From the NCBI RefSeq assembly GCF_001427865.1, contig NZ_LMHH01000003.1, positions 256 through 64,255 on the forward strand: a stretch of DNA of 64,000 nucleotides, given 5' to 3'. Below, in pieces: positions 6,884 to 17,351 of this stretch. The notes below the pieces were generated by a model, which was not told the DNA's origin, ran no database searches, and saw only the letters and a list, made by a program, of their open reading frames with translations. The translations under genes were made by a program, and so were the position numbers. The DNA comes from Altererythrobacter sp. Root672 (GTDB lineage: Bacteria > Pseudomonadota > Alphaproteobacteria > Sphingomonadales > Sphingomonadaceae). How positions within the stretch are numbered: the stretch's first letter is position 1; each line of letters begins with the position of its first letter.

Positions 6884-7909
6884 ATGCACGGGTCAGTCCA
6901 TCTTTTCGACAGACTGCCGGAAGTCGTGAAGCCCACGGCTCCGGTCGTGCACGTCGCTGCCCCAGTCCGGCAGGTCCCCCTCGTGGGTGTGATCCGCAAT
7001 GCGCGGAGTCATCGCGAGATGGCTCCTGTCGAAAACAGCGCAAGAGCGACTCTGCTGATGGAGTCGCCGGGCGACCGGGCGGATCTGCCGGCCATCCTCA
7101 GCAAGTTTGCCGAACGCCGGGTCGACTACATCGTGCTGGCCGGTGGCGACGGCACGGTGCGCGACGTGCTCACATGTGGCGCAGGGATTTTCGGAGAGAG
7201 CTGGCCTCCGCTGATCGTACTCCCCAATGGCAAGACCAACGCGCTGGCGGTCGATCTCGGCCTGCCGCTCAACTGGTCGCTGACCGAAGCGCTGGACGCG
7301 ATCCATTCGGGCCAGATCGAGCAGCGCCGCCCGTTGGCCGTTTCCCTGAGGGATAACGCAAACGCCCGGGTGCAGGGCTTCGTGCTTGGCGCAGGCGCCT
7401 ACACTGCGGCGATCCAGCTCGGCCAGAAGGCGCACAAGAAGGGCGCGTTCAACAGCCTCGGCGTCGGCATCACCGTGGCCGGGAGCTTGCTGCAGGCCCT
7501 GTTTGGTAGCGGCGGCAATGTCTGGCGTCGCGGCACGCCCATGCGTTTGTTCGATGGCGATGGCCGTGAGGTCGAGCACAGCGGAATCGGCCGTCTGGAC
7601 GAGCGATTCTTGCTGTTCACCTCCACTCTCCGTCGATTCCCCGCCGGCTTGAGGCCGTTTCTGAACGGCAACGCGTCGACCATGCGTACCGCGATGCTCG
7701 ATAGTTCGAGCCGCAGCCTGCTTCTTCGCCTGCCAATGATGATCCGCGGCAAGATCTCCGAAGGGATGCGTCGGGCGGGATATCAGGTGGTCGAATCGGA
7801 TTCGATCCAACTGGATATCTCGGACCGCTTCATCCTCGACGGGGAAGCCTTCCCAGGAGGCCGGTACCAGCTTTCGCTTGGGCCCAAGCTGCGCTTCGTC
7901 GTCCCGTGA
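6884..7909 (+). CDS. Diacylglycerol-kinase-family lipid kinase
   Basis: This 341-residue protein is of the DAGK catalytic-domain family (YegS/LCB5/DgkB group), which phosphorylates lipids such as diacylglycerol or sphingoid bases with ATP. The nucleotide-binding GGDGT motif is at residues 87-91, after a typical GVIRNARSHRE strand-loop (about 35-45). A second conserved block, LPNGKTNALAVDLGLP, follows near 108-123. The C-terminal half is the beta-sandwich substrate domain. It has no membrane segment, as expected for soluble family members. The next gene starts inside its stop codon (GTGA), so the two are translationally coupled. That partner looks like a Tam41-type CDP-diacylglycerol synthase, which would use the phosphatidate made here if the substrate is diacylglycerol. 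Confidence 0.88.
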   Translation: MHGSVHLFDRLPEVVKPTAPVVHVAAPVRQVPLVGVIRNARSHREMAPVENSARATLLMESPGDRADLPAILSKFAERRVDYIVLAGGDGTVRDVLTCGAGIFGESWPPLIVLPNGKTNALAVDLGLPLNWSLTEALDAIHSGQIEQRRPLAVSLRDNANARVQGFVLGAGAYTAAIQLGQKAHKKGAFNSLGVGITVAGSLLQALFGSGGNVWRRGTPMRLFDGDGREVEHSGIGRLDERFLLFTSTLRRFPAGLRPFLNGNASTMRTAMLDSSSRSLLLRLPMMIRGKISEGMRRAGYQVVESDSIQLDISDRFILDGEAFPGGRYQLSLGPKLRFVVP

Positions 7910-8814
7910 GCGGGGCTCTTGCCGCGCGTCTCAGCGCGGCGCTGGAACGGCCTCTCGCCCCTGCAGTCGCTGAGTTTGCGCGCCAGATTGGCGAAGAGGC
8001 CGGCTCGCGCGCGGTGCTGTTCTACGGCTCCAACTTGCGGACCGGCTCGCTCGAAGGCGTGCTCGACTTCTACGTCCTGCTCCCCGGCGAGGTCGAAGGC
8101 GGCATCTGGCCGCGGGTCTCCTACCGCGAAAAGCTCCACGAAGGCATCACCCTCCGCGCCAAGATCGCGACCATGAACTTGGCTACCTTCGCCGCGGCTG
8201 CGGGCGGAGAGAAGCTCGACACCACGATCTGGGCGCGCTTCGTGCAGCCGGCCGGGCTGGCGTGGTCGAGCGGTCCCGAGGTGGCGAGCGAAGTGACTGT
8301 CGCCCTCGCCGCTGCCGCGCAAACCGCCGCACGTCTCGCCGTAGTCCTTGGGCCGGCCAAGGGCGTGGAGGAGGATTACTGGCGAGCCCTGTTCCGGGCG
8401 ACCTACCGCGCGGAATTGCGGGTGGAAGCGGCGGGGCGCGAAGAATCGATCATCGCCGCCAACCGTTCACACTTCGAGGGGCTGTTGCCGTTGGCACTGG
8501 CTGCCCAAGGCGTTCCCTTAATTCAGGTGGGACAGGCCATTGAGCCCAAGCTCGACGCGGAGTGGCGTCGGGAGGTCCAGCAATGGTGGGTGAAGCGGCG
8601 TCGGTTCGGCAAACTGCTCAACCTCGCCCGCCTGGCAAAGGCCTCGACCACGTTCGAAGGCGGCATGCGCTATATTGCGTGGAAAGTGGAACGGCACACC
8701 GGCGAGAAGGTCGAGGTGACGCCGCTGCGCGAGAAGTACCCGGTCCTCGCCGGTCCAGCGATCCTGCGGCGATTGCTTAGATTTCGGCGCCGCGAGAAGA
8801 ACTCCGAGCTCTAA
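7906..8814 (+). CDS. Tam41-like protein, putative phosphatidate cytidylyltransferase
   Basis: This 302-residue protein appears related to Tam41/Mmp37, the mitochondrial CDP-diacylglycerol synthase that makes CDP-DAG from phosphatidate and CTP. Evidence by eye: a nucleotidyltransferase signature YGSN (40-43) with LDFYVL (53-58), which matches the Tam41 arrangement YGSG...LDFVF. A block at 157-192 (EDYWRALFRATYRAEL, then NRSHFEGLL) parallels the Tam41 segment that ends in HFRELY. The C terminus has a Ser/Thr-Gly-rich patch (246-266) before the last helix. There is no membrane segment, unlike the CdsA family. The GTG start overlaps the lipid-kinase stop by four bases. Known: Tam41 function in mitochondria. 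Inferred: the same reaction here. A different nucleotidyltransferase role remains possible. Confidence 0.6.
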   Translation: MSGALAARLSAALERPLAPAVAEFARQIGEEAGSRAVLFYGSNLRTGSLEGVLDFYVLLPGEVEGGIWPRVSYREKLHEGITLRAKIATMNLATFAAAAGGEKLDTTIWARFVQPAGLAWSSGPEVASEVTVALAAAAQTAARLAVVLGPAKGVEEDYWRALFRATYRAELRVEAAGREESIIAANRSHFEGLLPLALAAQGVPLIQVGQAIEPKLDAEWRREVQQWWVKRRRFGKLLNLARLAKASTTFEGGMRYIAWKVERHTGEKVEVTPLREKYPVLAGPAILRRLLRFRRREKNSEL

Positions 8815-8823
8815 AGCCAGCCC

Positions 8824-9336
8824 TTACATGTAGTGCAGGTTGATGGTGATCGACTTGACCTCTTTGCCGACCGGAAAGCTGGTCTTGGTGTAGCTCGGCT
8901 TGCCGAGATTGAAGAGGGTGTAGGCCGGATTGTTCGAAGCGCCGCCGCCGTCCTGAGTCAGATCTGTCTTGTCGTTGCCGTTGACGTCGTGGCGTATGGC
9001 GACCGCATAATTGCCCGGCCCCGGAACAGGGAGACAGAAGGTCATGGTGCCGGCTTTCGCCGGTTGCTCAATGCGGTACAGCCAACGGCCGGATTCCAGC
9101 CAATCCTGCTTGGTCGCGCGGTAGATCTGCGCCCGGACTATCCCCGTGCCTGACTTGATGCCAGTGACGCGGACGCTAACCGCTGGGCCATCACCGCGGC
9201 AGCGGGACATGTCGTTGGTGATCTTCTGTTTATATTGCGCCTGCAGCGGCGCCGCCATGAGCAGCCCCGCCAGCGCCAGGCCGTTGAGAGCCCAGCCTAT
9301 CGCTTTCGCGCAATTAGTATTGCCTGGTTTCACCAT
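8824..9336 (-). CDS. DUF2141 domain exported protein
   Basis: The protein has 170 residues. A Sec signal peptide covers about residues 1-33 (hydrophobic LNGLALAGLLMAAPLQAQ, cleavage after AQA). The rest is a DUF2141 domain, a beta-sandwich of unknown function. The diagnostic features are a GIVRAQIY strand and, later, AVAIRHDVNGNDKTD, the Asp- and Asn-rich loop typical of the family. It is probably periplasmic. It is convergent with the Tam41-like gene, ten bases from its stop. No partner or regulator is evident. Confidence 0.85.
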   Translation of the reverse strand: MVKPGNTNCAKAIGWALNGLALAGLLMAAPLQAQYKQKITNDMSRCRGDGPAVSVRVTGIKSGTGIVRAQIYRATKQDWLESGRWLYRIEQPAKAGTMTFCLPVPGPGNYAVAIRHDVNGNDKTDLTQDGGGASNNPAYTLFNLGKPSYTKTSFPVGKEVKSITINLHYM

Positions 9337-14145: not shown

Positions 14146-14808
14146 ATGCGCGCCTTGCTCGCAGCAGGCGCGCTCGCCTTGGCAGGTTGCGGTTCAGCCG
14201 TGGCCGCCGAAAGCACATTTAACGCTCCCTCAGCCAAGCGCGAGGCGAACGAGACCGGTCTCAAGACCGCGATCTTCGCTGGCGGTTGCTTCTGGGGTGT
14301 CGAAGCGGTCTTCAGCCATACCAAGGGCGTGACCAGCGCGGTTTCGGGCTATCACGGCGGTAGTGCGGCCACCGCGCATTACGAAATGGTTTCCGCCGGC
14401 GGCACCGGACACGCGGAATCGGTCAAGGTGACGTACGACCCCAAGGTCATACGTTACGACCAGCTTCTCCAGATCCTGTTCTCGGTAGTGGCCGATCCCA
14501 CGCTCAAGAATCGCCAGGGCCCCGACAGCGGTACGCAATATCGCGCCGCGATCGTTCCGCTTTCGGCAGAGCAACGCCAAGTCGCCACCGCCTATCTCGC
14601 ACAGATGCGTTCGAGCGGGGTGTGGGACAAGCCGATCGTGGTCCAGGTCGAGAGCGCAAAGACGTTCTACCCGGCTGAGGACTATCATCAGGACTTCGCC
14701 AAGCGGAACCCGAACCAGGGCTACATCCTGCGCTATGACGCGCCCAAGGTGGCGGCGTTCAAGGCGATGTATCCGTCGCTCTATCGCGCGGTGTATCAGA
14801 CAGGCTGA
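14146..14808 (+). CDS. msrA: Peptide-methionine (S)-S-oxide reductase, lipoprotein form
   Basis: MsrA reduces the S form of methionine sulfoxide in proteins. The catalytic motif GCFWG is present near residues 49-53, followed by the family segments GYHGG, HAESVKVTYDP and DSGTQYRAAI, and the late YHQDFAKRNP. The start at 14146 gives a lipoprotein leader: MRALLAAGALALAGC with the lipobox Cys at residue 15, so the enzyme should be anchored in the periplasm. The frame is open upstream to 14008, but that part overlaps the 32-residue membrane protein and is not protein-like. The other exported methionine sulfoxide reductase of this window, msrB, is at 56374. Confidence 0.93.
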   Translation: MRALLAAGALALAGCGSAVAAESTFNAPSAKREANETGLKTAIFAGGCFWGVEAVFSHTKGVTSAVSGYHGGSAATAHYEMVSAGGTGHAESVKVTYDPKVIRYDQLLQILFSVVADPTLKNRQGPDSGTQYRAAIVPLSAEQRQVATAYLAQMRSSGVWDKPIVVQVESAKTFYPAEDYHQDFAKRNPNQGYILRYDAPKVAAFKAMYPSLYRAVYQTG

Positions 14809-14843
14809 TTGCCGCCCGGCAACACCAGCCCTATATTCCAGTC

Positions 14844-15305
14844 ATGGGCCTACATAAGCACCACGAACATTCGGGCGAGCGCCTGGTCGTAGAGGCCGAG
14901 AGCGTGCTCACGAACGCCGGCGAACAATGGACCGCGATGCGCTCCGACGTCTTCGAAGCGCTGGCGGCGCAGGACCGCCCTGCTTCGGCCTACGACATCG
15001 CCGAAGCAGTCGGAAAGATTCGCGGCAAGCGCGTCGCCGCCAACAGCGTCTATCGCATCCTCGACCTGTTCGTGCGCACCAACCTCGCCAACCGCGTCGA
15101 AAGCGCCAACGCCTATCTCGCCAACAGCCACCCCGGTTGCCGGCACGACTGCATCTTCCTCATTTGCGACGATTGCGGACAGGCGACCCATCTCGACGAC
15201 GACCGCCTGACGGGCGCGTTGCGCGAAGCTGGGCGTGAGGCGGGCTTCGCCGACGTACGCCCCGTGGTCGAGTTGCGCGGGATCTGCGAAGAATGCGCGG
15301 GATAG
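14844..15305 (+). CDS. zur: Fur-family transcriptional regulator, Zur-like
   Basis: This 153-residue protein has the Fur fold: an N-terminal winged helix (about 30-90, with AYDIAEAVG and SVYRILDLF) and a C-terminal dimerisation domain. Metal ligands are visible as CDDC (about 109-112) and CEEC (about 149-152), the structural zinc site, plus HPGCRHDC and several His residues. The early His-rich stretch (HKHHEH, 4-9) may also bind metal. The lack of typical Fur iron residues and the similarity to short alphaproteobacterial Zur proteins favour zinc-responsive control of uptake genes. Target genes are not in view. Fur or Irr-like roles are less likely. Confidence 0.78.
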   Translation: MGLHKHHEHSGERLVVEAESVLTNAGEQWTAMRSDVFEALAAQDRPASAYDIAEAVGKIRGKRVAANSVYRILDLFVRTNLANRVESANAYLANSHPGCRHDCIFLICDDCGQATHLDDDRLTGALREAGREAGFADVRPVVELRGICEECAG

Positions 15306-15428
15306 CCGTGAGCTACTGAATCTGGCGCGATTTGCGGGGAACCGAGCGATTTTCACGAAATCCTCATAACAACCTCACCCGCCTTTCATCGACACGCGAA
15401 GGTCACAGGTGTAAGTGCCCCCCGAACG

Positions 15429-17351
15429 ATGACTTCATTACTTCAAACCCCCCTGCTCGACAGCGTCGCTACGCCCGAAGACCTGCGTCAGCTGGATCGC
15501 AAGAACTTGCGCCAGTTGGCCGACGAATTGCGCTCGGAAATGATCGACGCCGTGGGCAGCACCGGCGGCCACCTGGGCTCGGGCTTGGGCGTGGTCGAGC
15601 TGACGGTTGCCGTCCATTACGTCTTCAACACGCCGACCGACCGGCTGATCTGGGACGTTGGCCACCAGGCCTATCCGCACAAGATCCTGACCGGCCGGCG
15701 CGATCGCATTCGCACCTTGCGCCAGGCTGGCGGTCTCAGCGGCTTCACCAGGCGTAGCGAGAGCGAATACGATCCGTTCGGCGCGGCGCACTCTTCGACT
15801 TCGATATCCGCGGGCCTCGGCTTTGCCATTGCGAACAAGCTGGCCGGCGAACCGGGCAAGGCGATCGCCGTGATCGGCGACGGCGCGATGAGCGCCGGCA
15901 TGGCCTACGAGGCGATGAACAACGCCGAAGCGGCGGGCAATCGCCTGGTCGTCATCCTCAACGACAACGACATGTCGATCGCCCCACCGGTGGGCGGCCT
16001 GTCGGGCTACCTCGCGCGGCTGGTGTCCTCGGCCGAGTTCCTCGGCCTGCGCGAACTGGCGCGGCGTTTCGCCCGCAAGCTGCCCGAACCGTTGCACCGC
16101 GCGGCCAAGAAAACCGACGAATATGCCCGCGGCATGGCCATGGGCGGCACTTTGTTTGAAGAGCTGGGCTTCTACTACGTCGGCCCAATCGACGGGCATG
16201 ACCTCGACCAGCTCGTCCCAGTGCTCGAAAACGTGCGCGATGCGGCCGAAGGGCCGTGCCTGATCCACGTCGTGACCCAGAAGGGCAAGGGCTATGCCCC
16301 GGCGGAAAACAGCGCCGACAAGTACCACGGTGTGCAGAAGTTCGACGTCGTCACCGGCGAACAGACCAAGAGTGCGGGCGGCCCGCCCAGCTACACTTCG
16401 GTTTTCGCCAAGGCCCTGATCGAAGAAGCGGCGCGCGACAGTCGCGTCTGCGCAATCACCGCGGCGATGCCGAGCGGTACCGGGCTCGACAAGTTCGAGA
16501 GCCTCTATCCCGAACGCAGCTTCGATGTGGGCATCGCCGAACAGCACGCGGTCACTTTCGCGGCCGGATTGGCGGCGCAAGGCATGCGCCCGTTCTGCGC
16601 GATCTATTCGACATTCCTGCAGCGCGCTTACGATCAGGTCGTACACGACGTGGCGATTCAGAATCTGCCGGTCCGTTTTGCCATCGACCGCGCCGGCCTC
16701 GTCGGCGCCGATGGCGCTACGCACGCTGGCAGCTTCGATGTGACTTACCTCGCGACCCTGCCCAACTTCGTGGTCATGGCCGCGGCGGACGAGGCTGAAC
16801 TGGTCCACATGGTCCATACCGCCGCGCTCTACGACAAGGGGCCGATCGCCTTCCGTTATCCGCGCGGAAACGGCGTCGGCGTGCCGCTGCCCGAAATTCC
16901 AGAGGCGCTGCCGATCGGCAAGGGCCGTGTGGTCCGTCACGGCAGCAAGGTTGCGCTGCTATCGCTCGGTACACGCCTGGCAGAGGCCTTGAAGGCTGCG
17001 GATCAGCTCGACGCCAAGGGGCTTTCGACGACCGTGGCCGACTTGCGCTTCGCCAAGCCGCTCGACAGCGAGCTGATCCGCAAGTTGATGGCAACTCACG
17101 AAGTGGTCGTGACGATCGAGGAAGGCGCCATTGGCGGGCTCGGGGCGCACGTGCTGACGCTGGCCAGCGACGAAGGGCTGACCGATGCAGGCCTCAAGAT
17201 CCGCACCATGCGTCTGCCTGACGTGTTCCAAGAGCACGAGGCGCCCGACAAGCAGTACGACGAGGCGCGGCTCAACGCCCCGCATATCGTCGAGACGGTG
17301 CTTTCGGCCCTGCGCCACAACAGCAGCGGCGTCGAAGAAGCCCGGGCCTAG
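15429..17351 (+). CDS. dxs: 1-deoxy-D-xylulose-5-phosphate synthase
   Basis: This 640-residue thiamine-diphosphate enzyme condenses pyruvate and glyceraldehyde 3-phosphate to start the MEP isoprenoid pathway. Visible: the [19 protein letters not shown] start region, [12 protein letters not shown], the ThDP motif beginning [13 protein letters not shown] (about 151-163) and ending NDNDMSI, and the transketolase central domain with [12 protein letters not shown] (about 372-383). The C-terminal domain follows. The length matches the family. It may supply carotenoid and quinone precursors. A terminator-like stem-loop follows the stop. Confidence 0.98.

Follow-up and report, generated by a model that had tools for sequence, protein, structure and literature searches.

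A Tam41-related nucleotidyltransferase beside a lipid kinase in Altererythrobacter sp. Root672: a candidate CTP:ceramide-1-phosphate cytidylyltransferase of phosphosphingolipid synthesis

The window (the whole stretch of 64,000 nucleotides of Altererythrobacter sp. Root672 that was analyzed) contains two overlapping genes that are likely to be an Erythrobacteraceae-type cpgB-cpgC pair of phosphosphingolipid synthesis, by which ceramide would be converted to ceramide-1-phosphate and then to CDP-ceramide. This assignment is based on gene order, co-occurrence with serine palmitoyltransferase, and published Caulobacter genetics. Orthology of the two genes to the cpgB-cpgC pair is very probable; formation of CDP-ceramide by CpgC, predicted from sequence, is also probable but less firmly so. 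The gene pair belongs to a pathway already described in Caulobacter and is ordinary in that sense, and its interest lies in the specific reaction proposed for CpgC. The Caulobacter pathway, the product of which helps cells to live without lipopolysaccharide, has a gap between ceramide-1-phosphate and ceramide phosphoglycerate.

The gene pair and its neighbors

Both open reading frames singled out in an earlier note on this DNA are present, and the features of the region are as follows.

6884-7909, forward strand: cpgB-like ceramide kinase, DAGK_cat/LCB5 fold, GGDGT motif, at most 341 aa
7906-8814, forward strand: cpgC-like Tam41-related nucleotidyltransferase, GTG start, 302 aa; proposed CTP:ceramide-1-phosphate cytidylyltransferase
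7906-7909, forward strand: GTGA start/stop overlap of the kinase and CpgC-like genes, read from the sequence
8824-9336, reverse strand: DUF2141 protein, convergent (PF09912, E 7.2e-22)

The upstream gene encodes a DAGK-family lipid kinase, as the earlier note proposed (PF00781, E 4.9e-14 in a Pfam search), and its product is 32% identical over 306 aa to the kinase of a Roseomonas sphingolipid cluster (E 5e-26). The Roseomonas-cluster kinase lacks the N-terminal ∼26 aa of the window kinase, and the start of the latter may, on this alignment, lie downstream of position 6884. The start codon of the second gene overlaps the kinase stop codon, GTG (7906-7908) and TGA (7907-7909) sharing bases as GTGA, and the two genes are likely to be translationally coupled through this overlap.

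The pair is followed by the convergent DUF2141 gene and by rpe, a heparinase-like gene, and purH, and it is preceded, on the opposite strand, by an open reading frame putatively labeled, from sequence, as amidohydrolase-type or peptidase-like. Relatives in Porphyrobacter (84% identity), Croceibacterium (85%), and Altererythrobacter (66%) keep the downstream arrangement, and close homologues retain the key residues. Judged from these best matches, the window would belong to the Erythrobacteraceae side of Sphingomonadales.

DUF2141 genes recur in this setting. They lie near cpgC in the window and in loci L001-L003, L037, and L042, as well as within the sphingolipid clusters of Roseomonas (L038 and L041); additional loci with a DUF2141 gene beside cpgC or within a sphingolipid cluster (L046, L048, L049, L051, and L069) come from several families. 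The text of PMC11324152 that was consulted does not mention DUF2141 when naming the genes of the Caulobacter cluster. The DUF2141 protein is possibly an accessory of the sphingolipid pathway.

Sphingolipid gene clusters of homologues

In most lineages the CpgC-like gene sits within a sphingolipid cluster. The clusters on Roseomonas plasmids run LptG, LptF, HIT, DUF2141, metallophosphoesterase, CDP-alcohol phosphatidyltransferase, kinase, and CpgC-like gene and then, after GT39 in one of the records, serine palmitoyltransferase, acyl carrier protein, and flippase, and the aminotransferase matches the curated serine palmitoyltransferase at 626 bits (cutoff, 500). Similar gene sets occur in many other alphaproteobacterial loci. 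Of 42 loci, 36 have a kinase immediately upstream of the CpgC-like gene, and 25 encode serine palmitoyltransferase in the stretch that was retrieved.

These clusters match the published order CC_1155-CC_1166 of Caulobacter, with the CpgC-like gene at the place of CC_1161, beside cpgB. According to PMC11324152, the Caulobacter region comprises LptF2/LptG2 (CC_1156/CC_1155), a phosphoesterase (CC_1158), CpgA (CC_1159, CDP-alcohol type), the ceramide kinase CpgB (CC_1160), CpgC (CC_1161), and Spt (CC_1162), with ceramide genes continuing to CC_1165 and a flippase at CC_1166. As in the window, the kinase of Caulobacter crescentus (CpgB; CC_1160/CCNA_01218) adjoins a CDP-DAG-synthase-like protein (CpgC; CC_1161/CCNA_01219), and homologues of the window pair are ordered alike beside genes for serine palmitoyltransferase, CDP-alcohol transferase, metallophosphoesterase, and LptF2/LptG2. 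Unlike the Caulobacter genes, the window pair itself stands apart from the sphingolipid genes, between DUF2141/rpe/purH and the peptidase-like gene. Orthology of CpgC to CC_1161 is argued from cluster order and a published domain note.

Distribution and the host genome

The CpgC-like gene was found in 34 of 289 alphaproteobacterial genomes, every one of which (34/34) also encodes serine palmitoyltransferase, compared with 6 of the 255 genomes without the CpgC-like gene (Fisher test, 1.8e-38, with relatedness of the genomes ignored). Serine palmitoyltransferase was called at E < 1e-90, and the nearest paralogue in the host genome scored 9.7e-43. Six genomes (G012 and G145 [same family], G066, G079, G246, and G280) encode serine palmitoyltransferase without a detected CpgC, and their sphingolipids may all lack this phosphate head group. 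Of 120 genomes from the taxonomic family of the window, 92 carry the CpgC-like gene.

In the host genome the sphingolipid genes are scattered, as they are in Sphingomonas wittichii and Zymomonas mobilis (PMC11324152). The host serine palmitoyltransferase is encoded on contig C2 (327619-328806; NF047603 equivalog, 807 bits; cutoff, 670), where an acyl carrier protein gene adjoins it, and contig C1 carries, at ∼41 to 46 kb, homologues of LptF/LptG and of the protein that occupies the CC_1154 position. A search of the host genome with a Roseomonas CpgA query, run without a positive control, found no homologue. Z. mobilis, which lacks CC_1159, could according to the authors make CPG but not CPG2 (PMC11324152), and in having no detected CpgA the host looks, from its sequence, like Z. 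mobilis. The stretch around the host serine palmitoyltransferase (L079) also encodes a Pycsar effector-type membrane protein (PycTM; 8039-8800, reverse strand) and a phage terminase large subunit (14357-15697, forward strand).

Relationship to Tam41

The Tam41-like blocks recognized in the earlier note (YGSN, LDFYVL, and SHFEGLL) are present and collinear in a profile-profile alignment. A CpgC-like family profile of 31 homologues from alphaproteobacteria was compared by hhalign with three Tam41 sequences, namely, that of yeast (301 bits to PF09139) and two fragments, from S. pombe and Firmicutes, taken from a PDB search. The match covered 175 columns (P 2.1e-5, score 44.5), compared with a best P of 0.011 and a top score of 24.6 among 99 column shuffles and with a P of 0.84 and a score of 11.1 for the reversed alignment. 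In order, the paired blocks (CpgC-like and Tam41, respectively) were YGS and YGS, LDFYVL and IDLILI/IDFIFQ, RAKIAT and KYGII, WARFVQP and GRFQKP, ATYRAELRVE and SYSGDTRMKV, and SHFEGLL and YDKFNEMY. The likeness includes the R-A-K/K-Y-G strand, the GRF..P/ARF.QP block, the [ST]Y..[DE].R helix and, by eye, the final KAxxTFxGGxxY helix block.

The profile search suggested in the earlier note gave a divided answer. The window protein alone had no Pfam match at E ≤ 1 and no NCBIfam match, while L032, at 28.8 bits, was the only one of 31 family members to pass the PF09139 gathering cutoff of 24 bits; L028 fell below it at 23.1 bits. Tam41 was the sole Pfam family to which more than one member matched. 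Against the PDB, the window protein alone had no Tam41 match, and the only match of the 31-row profile was to a minimal nucleotidyltransferase (E 0.016). Across 289 alphaproteobacterial and 299 phylum genomes, PF09139 gave only two matches, both subthreshold and both to CpgC-like family genes in cpg-like clusters; no control genome matched either. No relatives of the CpgC-like protein were found in the viral contigs searched, nor was Tam41 proper found on plasmids or phages. Given the collinear match above the shuffles and the score of L032 over the PF09139 cutoff, the likeness of the CpgC-like family to Tam41, judged on sequence, is greater than chance.

Structure model and conserved residues

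A structure model of the window protein, built from 4 closely related sequences, had a mean pLDDT of 49.9 and was confident only in its N-terminal core, the first ∼140 residues forming a nucleotidyltransferase core. This model (mean pLDDT 49.9) aligned with Tam41 structures 7ECD (Z 8.0, rmsd 3.7, 150 residues) and 6IG4 (Z 7.4, rmsd 4.7, 154 residues). The Tam41 Z scores were tied with those of aminoglycoside nucleotidyltransferases, and the alignments to Tam41 covered more residues than those to the other listed nucleotidyltransferases. In Foldseek the best E values were to aminoglycoside nucleotidyltransferases; Tam41 was not among the best 50 matches listed there and was seen in the second structural comparison. 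In the structural comparison suggested in the earlier note, the model shows a nucleotidyltransferase core, but it is weak and its Z scores do not separate Tam41 from other nucleotidyltransferases. The joint absence of a profile match and of a core fold, which the earlier note held to count against it, did not occur in the family taken overall.

Twenty positions of the window protein, including the start Met, are invariant in 31 sequences, among them Y40, G41, D54, K86, R111, Q114, P115, E170, R172, K260, and H264, and the YGS loop is conserved. Loss of the metal-binding Asp, also named beforehand as contrary evidence, was not seen in the homologues: D54 is invariant (31/31), and position 56 is Y, F, or C, never Asp. 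The family thus has one Asp and no DxD, as in Tam41 (IDLIL/IDFIF), which retains a single acidic residue of the usual core motif (PMC11646218). Two differences stand out. First, where the three Tam41 sequences carry the Lys of GRxxKP, the CpgC-like family has an invariant Gln (Q114), and the chemistry or nucleotide of CpgC may therefore differ. Second, the CpgC-like family has Glu for the Asp of the SYxGDxR block. The context also differs, being cardiolipin for Tam41 (mitochondrial and Firmicutes; PF09139; PDB 6IG2, 6IG4, and 7ECD) and sphingolipid for CpgC.

Proposed function and alternatives

CpgB would phosphorylate ceramide with ATP to give ceramide-1-phosphate, as shown in Caulobacter and predicted here from orthology and gene order. 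CpgC would then, given its Tam41 homology and context, convert CTP and ceramide-1-phosphate to CDP-ceramide and pyrophosphate, and a CDP-alcohol-type phosphotransferase would exchange CMP for the head group (glycerate or phosphoglycerate in Caulobacter). We favor, with some reserve, the view that CpgC is a CTP:ceramide-1-phosphate cytidylyltransferase, a branch of the Tam41 fold specialized on sphingolipid that supplies CDP-ceramide for alphaproteobacterial head-group attachment. The tie of CpgC to Tam41 across ∼20 alphaproteobacterial families, with the invariant residues and the strict co-occurrence, narrows the question of CpgC function to one specific reaction. If correct, this would be an example of a lipid-phosphate-activating enzyme with a changed lipid substrate.

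The published genetics are consistent with this role. In Caulobacter, CC_1160 encodes a ceramide kinase, and strains that have lost CC_1161 make neither CPG nor CPG2 (PMC10331486; PMC11324152). CC_1161 has a CDP-DAG-synthase InterPro domain, and an NDP-activated ceramide was suggested by Olea-Ozuna et al. in 2024 (PMC11324152), although the term CDP-ceramide was not met in the literature searched. The CTP-using nucleotidyltransferase of the CPG2 cluster of the same pathway, the phosphoglycerate cytidylyltransferase CpgD (CCNA_01210), is unlike CpgC, being kin of inositol-1-phosphate cytidylyltransferase and making CDP-glycerate (PMC12275187). Three points stand against the CDP-ceramide reading: Q114 at the site of the Tam41 Lys, the lack of a detected CpgA homologue in the host, and the ability of CpgB to phosphorylate not only ceramide but also DAG in vitro (PMC10331486). 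In addition, CPG forms without CpgA in Caulobacter (PMC11324152), which leaves the first head-group step of CPG without an assigned CDP-alcohol transferase and also counts against CDP-ceramide.

The last observation, together with the invariant Q114, is also what would be expected if CpgC used a nucleotide other than CTP on ceramide-1-phosphate or catalyzed another transfer, e.g., joining of glycerate via an adenylated intermediate. Papers of 2024-2026 leave the CpgC mechanism open, those of 2025-2026 terming it unidentified. Such chemistry is a minority possibility, since Tam41, the one Pfam family with repeated matches and a collinear one, uses CTP.

Much less probable is the proposal of the earlier note, in which a DAG kinase and a CDP-DAG synthase form a soluble, CdsA-independent route of glycerophospholipid salvage. 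The pairing of a lipid kinase with a Tam41-related nucleotidyltransferase stands; the identification of the lipid as DAG or phosphatidate is not supported, in view of gene order, the 34/34 co-occurrence, and Caulobacter genetics. Tam41 homology and the in vitro activity of CpgB on DAG would suit such a route. However, a CdsA-family protein is present in the host genome and there is no sign of the CpgC-like gene replacing it, the homologues lie within sphingolipid clusters, deletion of cpgB leaves phosphatidate levels unchanged in Caulobacter (PMC10331486), and CC_1161 mutants lack phosphosphingolipids (PMC11324152). That the protein is a nonlipid minimal nucleotidyltransferase (antitoxin-type or aminoglycoside-modifying) with a chance resemblance to Tam41 is scarcely credible, despite the Foldseek ranking and the lack of a Pfam match for the window protein alone, as the profile match extends to helices beyond the nucleotidyltransferase core, the lipid-cluster place of homologues is conserved, and there is a single Asp rather than DxD.

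The earlier note also saw in this gene a bearing on the origin of Tam41. Descent of mitochondrial Tam41 from a CpgC-like gene was rejected: yeast Tam41 reaches Firmicutes Tam41 by single-sequence search (E 2.3e-29), whereas the CpgC-like family is reached by profiles only. With yeast Tam41 so much closer to the Firmicutes enzyme, the CpgC-like gene gives no support to an alphaproteobacterial origin.

Plasmid-borne clusters in other proteobacteria

Sphingolipid-type genes are also found on mobile elements. The conjugative IncP plasmid pDCB2 of the betaproteobacterium Diaphorobacter (L039, 1-16783) carries, adjoining arsenic and mercury resistance genes, a cluster of the phosphosphingolipid type that includes desaturase, ABC transporter, and acyltransferase genes. 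On the Pseudomonas plasmid pPNP1 (L040), a CpgC-like gene occurs with LptF/LptG, a kinase, an aspartyl/asparaginyl hydroxylase, a glycosyltransferase, and a phosphocholine cytidylyltransferase-like gene, similar to cytidylyltransferase genes in L052 and L070; this cluster variant may yield another head group.
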